Origin: Lineolata rhizophorae
Lineage: Eukaryota > Ascomycota > Dothideomycetes > Lineolatales > Lineolataceae
DNA length: 64,000 nt
Direction: 5' to 3'
Assembly: GCA_010093515.1 (NCBI GenBank)
Contig: MU001673.1
Span: 939,320 to 1,003,319, forward strand
Shown here piece after piece: positions 59,750-63,606 of the stretch (its first letter is position 1; every line of letters starts with the position of its first letter). Under the pieces are notes generated by a model that saw nothing but the letters and a program-made list of their open reading frames with translations, made no database searches and was not told the DNA's origin. Made by a program: the position numbers and the translations under genes.

Positions 59750-61048
59750 GCCTGGTCAGGTTTCGCCCGGTCGCGGGAGGGTGGGTGCAGCGAATGCTTT
59801 GAGTCCCTCTCGGCGCCCAAGGTGCGCATAAAGAGGAAGAACTACCACAATATGTCATCGGGCTCAAGTTCAAGTCGTATATAACAATTTTCATGTCGGC
59901 TTGGGTTGGCACTTTAATTCCTCGCCCTATTATTGTAGATGGTGATCGACACAGAGAATGCGCGCAGAAAGGCCTCCTTGGGGGTTGGGGAATTTCGCTG
60001 CGGCCAGGGGAGTGAGCCAACGAAAGTCGAGATTTTGGGCGGCGCGGGACTCCGCACGCCGTGTATTCGAGGGATCGTGGATGACAGCTCCGGGTCCGTT
60101 TGTTAGCGGTGTGCCCGACGGGCCATGCAGTGCGCGCCCGGCTGATTTCCGACTTGTGATAAGGGAACAGGATGCGACATGGCGTGGCGGGGGGGAGGAA
60201 CTGTTTCCGGTCGATATTGCAGGCCGGGCCATGACCCATGCCGCCACTAGGTAATTTAGCTGCGGGTGGACGCTGATTCGCGACAAGGGCCGTGGCCAAC
60301 TTTTTGGCCCGAAATTCGCTCACAGGCCCTCCGCTCCGGATTTAAGGCAAATGATCCCTGCCGAAGATCGACCCTTCCCACCATCACCTGGCGCCGGGGA
60401 CCCGCGCCCCGGCCAATGTCTTGCGTTGCTAGCGCGCAGGGACGCCCTAGTCACTTTGATCCTCGACTAAGCCTACCCAACGTGGACGACGGTCCATCGT
60501 ACCCGCTTCTTAGTTGTTTCATTATGTCGCAGCGAAGATGCAGGCGTGCGCGGCGCCACTCTGCCACCACCCGGCGGGCCTCTCCCTCGCGATCACCGAT
60601 CACAACGGCGGGATGCTGGAGAAAACGGGAAGTGACGACATGGCGCTGTCCATGCCCCCTCACCGCGACCCCGAAAACTGGCTCGACTGGACAGCCACAC
60701 GGCATATTCTAGAACAGCCGCGCTGCCGGGATGGCGCTCGGTCTTCCAGCTGTGATGAGGCTGGTCGCTTGAACGTGGGGAGACAGGTTGCGTCAGAACG
60801 CAGGGGCACTTGACTCGACGGGCCATCACTGTTCGGGACCTTCGTCATACCAAAACCGGTTGCGGGCACCGGAGTACTTTCTTTTCTAGGCCCGGCTCCT
60901 CATTTTCACCTCCACCATCCTCTTTGAATCCCACTCGTGCCGTTCGCCCTGTGCTTTGAAAAGAGATCCTCAACTGCTCTGCCATTCCCCTCATCACTCA
61001 CCAACATCAACACCACCCCTCACACTTCACTCTACCGACACACCAACA
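59750..61048. other. intergenic region, 1.3 kb
   Basis: Same-strand gap. Frames at 59958-60254 (+), 60266-60712 (+) and 60514-60813 (+) have no family features and overlap each other. The stretch 60900-61045 is C/T- and CA-rich, the likely promoter/leader of the next gene. Confidence 0.5.
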
Positions 61049-61805
61049 ATGGCCACTACCGCGGACAGGACTTCTGAGGAGCAGTCTGCGTCCATGGCCG
61101 CCGACGGCCAGGCCTCGGGCAACGCATCCCTCGGCGGCAACCTCGGCGCGCAAAGCTCGAGCAAGAAGACCACCGAGAGGCGCGCTCCGAAGAAGCTGGG
61201 CAGCAAGAAGCAGCAGCAGCAGCAGGCGCAGCAACCCACCCCCGAGCTGTCGCCCGCCGGCGACAACGACTCCGAGGCCGAGCATTCGGAGCCCGTCGAG
61301 AAGGCGTCCTCGCCCGAGCCGTCGCCGGCGCCCGTCGCCCGGCGCCGCCAGTCTCGCGGCCGCGGCCGTCGCGGCGTCGCCGAGAGCGATACCGAGTCGA
61401 TTGCTCGCTCCGATGTTTCCGCCGCGGGTGGGCGCCGCCAACGCCAGCGCCAGCGGGCCCGGGGCAAGCAGGGCGGCGGTGACCCCCTCGGTGGCATCAC
61501 CGAGCAGCTTCCCGGCGGCGAGCTGGTGAACGGTGCCGGCGAGATTGTCCAGAACACTGCCGGCCAGGCAGTCAACACCGTCGGCAACACTGCCGGCAAC
61601 GCCGTGAAGGGTCTTACCGGTGGTGGTGGTCAGAACGACGACGGCGACAAGGATGAACAGCTCAGGCTTCGCCTCGAACTCAACCTCGACATCGAAGTTC
61701 AGCTGAAGGCGAAGATCCACGGCGACTTGACTTTGGGATTGCTGTAAGTTTCTACCTTCACAGCAGTTGCAATTTCTAGTTTGCTAACGGACTTCTAGGA
61801 ACTAG
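61049..61805 (+). CDS. small disordered protein with alternating beta-type C-terminus, paralogue A
   Basis: Starts ATGGCCACTACC at 61049. The unspliced frame stops at 61747 (232 residues). A strong intron 61744-61798 (donor GTAAGT overlapping that stop, branch TGCTAACG, acceptor TTCTAG) instead yields 233 residues ending GLLN, and the coordinates given assume it is used. The first 200 residues are disordered: poly-Gln, Ser/Lys/Ala-rich, RGRGRR and RQRQRQRARGK basic patches, then Asn/Gly-rich repeats (NTAGQAVNTVGNTAGNAV). The C-terminal 28 residues (LRLRLELNLDIEVQLKA..., ending DLTLGLL) show a strict alternation of hydrophobic and polar residues over 17 positions, predicting one long beta strand and then a second. 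Basic patches suggest RNA or acidic-partner binding. I cannot assign a function. Confidence 0.72.
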
Positions 61806-63028
61806 ATAAACCACGATATCTGTACGATATGAAGTTTGGAGGAGGATGGATGTCTCTTGAAGCGGATATAGGAATGCATTGCTGGAGACCCCCTGCACTC
61901 TATTAATGTCGCATAGTCATGAGTTTCAATTGTAAGGGCGTATCTGGATTATCGTAGTGCTTTCTTTCGATGCTGGGTAGCAGACTGTCCGACTAGAAAA
62001 GTCAAACGTCGCAGAAATTCTGTGCGCAGATTGTTTAATAATTGAATCTAAGCCAGTAAAAGCATATATTCTGTTCTGGAGTGCTCAGGTCACTTTTCTA
62101 AGTGCTTTGGTTCCTCGTGTTCGTGAAAAGAGGCCTTTCGCAGCGCTCTCTTGCGCTTGTCTGGACGAGTCTCACGGCCAGTGCTGGAGGTGGTCTCCAT
62201 CATGACGTCGTAGTCTTGCGGGAAAAGGTCCTGCTGCCAGGAGGCGGCCTGATCGCGGGCGTGGGGTTCTTGGCGTAAGTTGAGTGGGCACTCGCTAGTT
62301 TCTGCGCTGCAACGCGTACGCCTGCCTTGATCGACCGGAGGGCCGCCTAAAGCCCAGTCGATCAGGATGTGCCACCCAATCCTGGCGCCCTCATCCGCTA
62401 GCATCTCCGATTTGACAAGTTGCGAGTTGCCGCTCGCGGACTGCCGGCTAAGTTCACTGAATCAGTGTACCCCAGCCTCCCCCCGATCCTAGTGGGCGCT
62501 CAGGCCGCGCATATTCCATCATGCCTAGCAACATGAGCCACACGCAGGGTCCCATCCTTGCCTTTCTAGACTCTTCTCCGGCCTTGATATGCTTCCCAAC
62601 CTATCGGTGGCCCAGGACTGTCTCAGACAGGTCGCTTCCAATGACGTCGAATTTCATAGCCTCAAAAATGGGAAAGCCTAATCGAGAGAAATGACGGCAT
62701 AAGGCAGCTAGACCCTTGATAGCACTGGCGCAGCGGCTGGGTGCATGTGCTTCTTGAGGAACCTGTTTTCTGCGAGTAGTGTGCAACTGAGGCCATACCT
62801 AGACGGTACCCCGGTCATTCCATCATCCAGCTCAGCTCTTCCATACATACCCCCTCTGTGACGTCTTTCTTCCCTTTTACCTTTTCTTCCTCACTTCTTC
62901 GTCTTGCTGTGCTGTACTCCGCATCCACCTCTTCCACACCCTTTACCACATCCTTCAATTCTCACCCAAACTACTCCGAACTACTCCAAACTACCTCTCA
63001 CAAGGTTACATCTTGTCCAGTCTTCATT
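61806..63028. other. intergenic region between the two paralogues
   Basis: 1.2 kb. Probable 3' UTR of paralogue A up to about 62080, then GC-mixed sequence with featureless frames (62090-62404 -, 62601-62786 -). 62860-63020 is C/T-rich and matches the leader of paralogue B. Confidence 0.55.
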
Positions 63029-63606
63029 ATGGCGGACAACGGTTCGGACTCAGAGCCTCAGGCGAGGACCATGGCGCAGCAAGAGAAGCAGCTGAACGCG
63101 AAGAAGCAAGCGAAGCGCGATGCCGGCCTCCAGTCGAACCGCTCTCGTTCGGCATCTCGGCGGGCTCGACGACAGCGCATCCAGCAAGGCCAGCAGGAGG
63201 GCAAGTACATGAAGACTGCAAGCTTGGAAGCACTGGAAGAGGCCGACGCGAACGGGGAACTGCAGCAGATGCAGAACTTCGAACGTATCGGACCCGATAG
63301 CACCTCCATGGACGGACCGGTCACCAAGGCTCGGGCCATGCGAGGCGAAATTCCGATGCGGGGCACGAATCCGAATCAGCCGTACCAAGTCGACCCGTCG
63401 GAGGCGAAGAAGGGCTCGTTGGAAGAGCAGGATGGCTTGAGGTTGAGGCTGGAAGCAAACCTGGACGTGGAGGTTGAGCTCAAGGCTAGCATCCGTGGTG
63501 ACCTGACGCTGTCACTACTGTAAGTTCCCTTTTTTTTTTCTACAGGGAGTCTCCGTGGCCCTTTTCGGACTGATGGGATTAATTCGAAGAGAATAACAGG
63601 GCTTAA
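63029..63606 (+). CDS. small disordered protein with alternating beta-type C-terminus, paralogue B
   Basis: ATG at 63029 (MADNGSDSEP). The unspliced frame stops at 63523 (164 residues). As in paralogue A, a GTAAGT donor overlaps that stop. Using acceptor AACAG at 63599 (80-nt intron) gives SLLA and a stop at 63606; this branch site is weaker than in A. The body is charged, Gln/Lys/Arg-rich and probably disordered (KQLNAKKQAKRDAG, RSRSASRRARRQRIQQG). The C-terminal 28 residues match A at 22 positions (LRLRLEANLDVEVELKA..., ending DLTLSLL). Upstream in-frame ATG at 62858 would add 57 mostly hydrophobic/Ser residues inside the C/T-rich leader and is judged unlikely. Same orientation as A, 1.2 kb apart, so a tandem duplication is likely; the rest of the two proteins has diverged greatly. 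Confidence 0.72.

Follow-up and report, generated by a model that had tools for sequence, protein, structure and literature searches.

The window, a 64-kb stretch of contig C4 in a 31-Mb genome assembly of 48 contigs, contains two adjacent genes arranged in tandem on the + strand. The open reading frame of gene 1 (61049..61747, + strand) encodes 232 amino acids (P0001), with a low-complexity body that includes an Arg/Gly/Gln-rich stretch and a candidate amphipathic-helix segment, followed by a C-terminal tail. Gene 2 (63029..63523, + strand) encodes 164 amino acids (P0002) and combines a low-complexity body containing an Arg/Ser stretch with a C-terminal tail. Gene content and the form of the introns suggest a filamentous ascomycete. 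The genomic surroundings of the tail genes look ordinary. Pfam matches were obtained for 7 of the 10 neighbouring frames scanned in the window, in the 20 kb downstream and near a third, distant copy of the tail. These include a 6-phosphofructo-2-kinase, an ABC transporter and a methyltransferase in the window; a class-III aminotransferase, an SDE2 splicing regulator and a Zn-cluster transcription factor in the downstream 20 kb; and a haem peroxidase/P450 beside the third copy.

The last 28 residues of gene 1 (61661..61744, + strand) and of gene 2 (63437..63520, + strand) are identical at 22 positions. Over their full length the two proteins align with a Smith-Waterman score of 123 (maximum of 2,000 shuffles, 88), whereas removal of the last 31 residues reduces the score to 65 (shuffle mean, 49), a value equalled or bettered by 4.1% of 2,000 shuffles. 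This near-random score indicates little similarity between the two proteins outside the tail, in agreement with the preliminary description, which had reported the 22 matches and nearly unalignable remainders. Across the final 29 codons, with the stop counted, nucleotide identity is 58/87, with 10, 4 and 15 differences at the first, second and third codon positions, respectively (15 of 29 differences thus fall at third positions). By the Nei-Gojobori method over 28 codons, pS is 0.756, so that dS is saturated, and dN is 0.23. Saturated synonymous change combined with low dN indicates that the protein sequence of the tail is under selection in genes 1 and 2, and retention of the protein while silent sites were randomised argues that the match arose neither by recent copying nor by chance. 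None of 50,000 shuffles that preserved the two faces of the tail aligned the gene 1 and gene 2 tails as well as the real sequences. We conclude that the tail is a genuine module of these two genes, kept by selection.

Hydrophobic and polar residues alternate strictly over 21 residues in each window tail. The preliminary description had noted this strict alternation and understated its length, giving 17 residues. Runs of 21 were equalled in only 1 and 2 of 20,000 shuffles of the two 31-residue tails. A survey of stop-to-stop frames of at least 30 residues, drawn from the window together with four 10-kb stretches (152,912 six-frame residues), ranked the window tails as the two longest alternating runs. 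Ten runs of 15 or more residues were present: two of 21, one of 19, two of 18 and five of 15. The two 18-residue runs are the tail of a third paralogue and an antisense reading of the gene 1 tail. The latter begins a 237-amino-acid open frame opposite gene 1 (61007-61720, − strand), which most probably arises as a side effect of codon usage. The third longest run, of 19 residues, lies in an open frame just past the stop of the third paralogue (L017 9725-9781, about C4:728868) and is unrelated and probably not translated. Consistent with the alternation, the hydrophobic moment, scanned on a 5-degree grid, peaks at 180 degrees in the tails of genes 1 and 2 and of the third paralogue (3.11, 2.98 and 2.67), and 0 of 10,000 shuffles reached the observed value for any of the three. 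At 100 degrees the moments are ordinary or low (0.12, 0.12 and 0.48; reached by 9,716, 9,705 and 5,787 of 10,000 shuffles). Drawn as a helix, the tail shows no hydrophobic side, whereas in strand form its hydrophobic side is close to perfect.

The third copy of the tail was detected by protein search of the genome at C4:728644-728730, about 270 kb from the pair on the same contig. It closes a 95-amino-acid, three-exon gene (C4:728342-728736; L003 1199-1593) whose introns of 54 and 53 nt have CTAAC- and CTAAT-type branch sites and whose tail ends in Gly-Leu-Tyr. The third tail is identical to the window tails at 12/28 and 11/28 positions, and the body of the third protein differs from those of genes 1 and 2. 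The search values are modest and alone would be weak evidence: E was 0.09 with the gene 1 tail as query and 0.1 with the whole of gene 1, the reverse search with the third tail recovered gene 1 at E 0.004, and in protein searches of the own genome gene 2 queries did not recover the third copy nor did the third tail recover gene 2. Stronger evidence comes from position and from shuffling. The match ends beside the third gene's own stop, in the same register as the window tails, and only 1 of 50,000 face-preserving shuffles (0 of 50,000 free shuffles) matched both window tails as well. On the basis of this C-terminal register and the face-preserving test, we accept the third copy as a paralogue. 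No fourth tail was found in the own genome among the best candidates of single-protein searches with gene 1, gene 2 and the third tail. The count of at least three is a lower bound, as the search scores the best candidates alone. Other matches of P0001 in the own genome, on C15 (E 0.009, with two internal stops), C23 and C6, covered the body and not the tail and were dropped.

Comparison of the three tails reveals constraint on both faces. All odd positions from 1 to 27 are occupied by aliphatic residues, Ala or Gly, and the small residues Ala17 and Gly21 recur at the same sites. Polar or charged residues predominate at the even positions, which start R-R-E-N-D-E in genes 1 and 2; this bias is weakest in the third copy. 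Ten columns are identical in all three sequences (Leu1, Leu3, Leu9, Glu12, Val13, Leu15, Ala17, Gly21, Asp22 and Leu27), of which Glu12 and Asp22 lie on the polar face and the remaining eight on the hydrophobic one. The tails carry a net charge of 0 to −1 and consist of 43 to 50% Val, Ile, Leu, Phe, Met, Tyr and Trp, versus 11 to 15% in the bodies.

The stop codons of both window genes are embedded in a potential splice donor, the sequence reading CTG-TAA-GT in each case, such that TAA lies within GTAAGT. In gene 1, a putative 55-nt intron (61744..61798, + strand) pairs this donor with a GCTAAC branch-like site and a CTAG acceptor; its predicted removal would replace the stop with a single Asn codon followed by TAG (61800-61805), giving an end of ...GLLN. 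In gene 2, a putative 80-nt intron (63520..63599, + strand) has the same donor and a CTGAT branch site, and its predicted removal would add one Ala and shift the stop to a TAA ending at 63606, giving ...SLLA. The preliminary description had placed the end of the pair at 63606, which corresponds to this spliced-model stop; the unspliced stop ends at 63523. In either gene, splicing is predicted to lengthen the protein by one residue and to leave the end of the tail nearly the same. As judged from the bases alone, the putative gene 1 intron is textbook in form, whereas the branch site and acceptor of gene 2 are less certain. A filter for branch plus acceptor was passed by 528 of 5,000 random positions and by 6 of 20 GTAAGT sites, and the hexamer is not enriched (20 occurrences, 22 expected). 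The branch-and-acceptor layout alone is therefore weak evidence, but the occurrence of the donor at the same place in both genes favours putative introns. The third gene ends in TGA and does not have the stop-in-donor arrangement.

The bodies that carry the tails have less in common. With the tail removed, those of genes 1 and 2 have net charges of +1 and +2 and pI values of 8.0 and 9.0, so the preliminary description of them as basic is only weakly true. Its description of the proteins as disordered applies to genes 1 and 2, which charge-hydropathy places on the disordered side, and for gene 1 also to the predicted model: the full-length AlphaFold model, made from a three-sequence alignment, suggests no order (mean pLDDT, 45.8). 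It does not extend to the third paralogue, whose body (net charge 0, pI 5.9) lies marginally within the ordered region of the charge-hydropathy plot (0.000 against 0.055). The gene 1 protein, of which 14% is Gly, contains a 33-residue candidate amphipathic helix rich in Ala, Val, Asn, Thr and Gly (residues 157-189; 61517..61615, + strand). At 98 degrees, 0 of 1,000 whole-body shuffles gave as strong a 33-residue window, and 3 of 1,000 did so for windows of 18 and of 22. In a slightly shifted segment picked by eye (residues 159-191), the moment peaks at 96 degrees, near the 98 degrees of an 11/3 helix. Repetition at lag 11 in the segment is not significant (2,566 of 20,000 shuffles), and lag 8 gives more identities (11 versus 8). 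No outstanding helix was detected in gene 2, where 756, 564 and 577 of 1,000 shuffles did as well at window lengths of 18, 22 and 33, and the signal in the third protein is weak (75, 40 and 570 of 1,000).

No credible match to these proteins was found in Pfam, NCBIfam, PHROGs or the PDB, with the family scans run on a 50-amino-acid frame of the third protein (its last exon plus the four intron-read residues before it) rather than on all 95 residues, and the PDB queried with the tail rather than with full proteins. Pfam returned no family for P0001 at E values up to 10, the perilipin domain included, and no domain in the 50-amino-acid frame of the third protein. The match of P0002 to FUT8_N_cat in Pfam (E 0.19) was below the curated cut-off and was rejected, as were two NCBIfam matches of P0001 (E 0.55 and 5.5), which lay in low-complexity segments and missed the cut-offs by a wide margin. 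A PDB match of a single tail to an engineered protein (E 1.2) was not obtained with the profile and was taken as chance. When tail alignments A2 and A3 were compared with viral and prokaryotic contig collections, 96, 90, 137 and 63 stretches fitted the pattern, none of which was confirmed by tblastn at E 1e-3; absence from these collections says little about fungi. Similar tails may occur in other Pezizomycotina proteins. Six tail fragments were not found in any paper of the text-searched collection, and no paper naming the tail was among the matches listed, as represented by their excerpts, for the literature on septal proteins, amyloids, Pezizomycotina-specific proteins, LxLxL motifs, 11-mers, splice/stop overlaps and alternating strands. 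In principle, there is precedent for low-complexity carriers that end in a short strand. The suggestion in the preliminary description that the block marks an undescribed fungal family is strengthened by the third C-terminal carrier in the same genome and by the lack of a credible match in the four libraries; within the databases and literature searched, the family is undescribed.

Structure prediction did not point to a strand. For the isolated 31-residue tail, AlphaFold2 run with three sequences gave a best model that is a single predicted helix (model means of 91.6, 91.5, 72.3, 57.8 and 42.0). The strand suggested in the preliminary description thus drew no support from the predicted monomer. 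The helical model counts against a strand, with the limited weight appropriate to a 31-residue peptide and three sequences. In the full-length model of gene 1, the tail region appears unordered (10-residue means of 36 to 45). We also examined charge complementarity between paired copies of the tail. Self-pairing looked good by eye and was rejected, since it was no better than shuffles either antiparallel (4,954, 9,113 and 794 of 10,000 shuffles as good for the three tails) or in shifted parallel registers (2,868, 5,758 and 6,801 of 10,000).

Taken together, these results leave us tentatively favouring a reading, plausible if somewhat short of probable, in which the tail is a short amphipathic beta-strand for assembly or docking, placed at the extreme C terminus of at least three paralogues. 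The family itself, its C-terminal position, the alternation, the low-complexity bodies and purifying selection in genes 1 and 2 are direct observations. An extended tail structure is suggested by the pattern, and pairing, a partner and a cellular role may be proposed from it. The assembly or docking module of the preliminary description therefore keeps its selected C-terminal block, gains a third carrier and a 180-degree moment, and is weakened by the helical best model and by the ordinary self-pairing charges. In the proposed mechanism, the tail would take an extended form, possibly kinked at Gly-Asp 21-22; its aliphatic face would be hidden by pairing with its own copies or with paralogues, or by addition to a partner's sheet; and pairing would tether the variable bodies to one assembly. 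A bolder version, which is possible and rather doubtful, is that the 28-residue C-terminal beta-strand alone defines an undescribed fungal family and co-assembles paralogues with unrelated bodies into a single polymer or condensate of mixed composition, a "common plug, variable cable", the window pair having its stop built into a splice donor. Domain databases miss families whose only shared feature is a very short C-terminal module and whose low-complexity bodies change fast. Should the tail prove to be an assembly strand, it would provide a small, genetically encoded tag for self-association or docking and an entry point to the roles of these fungal proteins.

Among the alternatives, an anchor to membrane or lipid surfaces would account for the strongly amphipathic strand pattern of the tail and, in gene 1, for the candidate helix at residues 157-189, which is poor in bulky residues and would stand shortly before the tail in the manner of perilipin and synuclein helices. 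We consider this explanation improbable. The helix is not outstanding in gene 2 and is weak in the third protein, and within gene 1 the lag-11 repetition is not significant and lag 8 gives more identities. According to excerpts of the perilipin 4 study, that protein consists of 33-residue units, each made up of three 11-mers, with very low hydrophobicity, and two such 33-mers remained cytosolic (PMC5889406), so that one unit alone would be a weak anchor. The net charge of the tail, 0 to −1, also argues against attachment to lipid.

A second alternative holds that the tail is a linear peptide docking onto one folded partner, as plant LxLxL (EAR) motifs do, rather than a self-assembling element. 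Plant LxLxL (EAR) repression motifs recruit co-repressors, and Arg/Gly- or Arg/Ser-rich stretches, as found in the bodies here, are frequent in nuclear or RNA-binding proteins. The tails of genes 1 and 2 open with L-x-L-x-L-x-(L/A)-x-L, which fits such a motif. However, conservation extends over 28 residues and both faces, far more than five, and the comparison concerns plant co-repressors. A docking peptide of this type seems unlikely to us.

Much less probable still is an amyloid-signalling motif shared by an NLR and its effector, as in HET-S/NWD2. Signalling of that type requires an effector domain, HeLo or similar, ahead of the motif and a homologous motif at the N terminus of an NLR, as a rule the product of a neighbouring gene. 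The tail is short, C-terminal and strand-like and contains a Gly-Asp pair, as HRAM-type motifs are reported to do in excerpts of PMC9815663. Nevertheless, in the own genome, with the best candidates scored, the tail occurs at three C termini and never before an NLR, and Pfam detected no effector domain in P0001, P0002 or the 50-amino-acid frame of the third protein. Searches confined to the NACHT and HeLo models located 14 NACHT places (12 above the Pfam cut-off) on C18, C20, C3, C4 and other contigs, which need not all be NLRs, since 11 of 14 prokaryotic control genomes gave matches to the NACHT model as well. The lone NACHT place on C4 is separated by about 617 kb from the pair and by 345 kb from the third copy. 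The three HeLo places are on C22, C3 and C10, and none is on C4. With neither an effector domain nor an NLR bearing the same motif found in these searches, a reading of the HET-S/NWD2 type is unsupported. Finally, a duplicate with a decayed body, or chance similarity without function, would suit the tandem, same-strand arrangement but is hardly credible given saturated synonymous change alongside a conserved protein, open frames, the shuffle controls and a distant third copy.

The assembly or docking strand that we favour can be set beside four known systems. Like perilipin and synuclein 11-mer helices, the gene 1 segment is a 33-residue amphipathic stretch without bulky residues; unlike them, it is a single unit, its repetition is not significant and it is not seen in gene 2. 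Alternating leucines are common to the tail and to plant LxLxL (EAR) motifs, whereas the tail is much longer and fungal. With the fungal amyloid motifs (HRAM, PP and sigma; HET-S/NWD2), as excerpted in PMC5485727 and PMC9815663, the tail shares a short, C-terminal, strand-like form separable from the body and a Gly-Asp pair. It differs in occurring once per protein, with a period of two over 27 residues, and in that neither a HeLo or other effector domain nor a motif-bearing NLR was found. The SPA/SPP septal pore proteins of Pezizomycotina resemble the present proteins in being disordered proteins of filamentous fungi, several of them without domains (PMC10023807, in part). The two groups part in composition when compared by description: the disordered regions of SPA/SPP proteins are biased against Gly and Lys in the same partial account (PMC10023807), versus the Gly content of 14% in gene 1.
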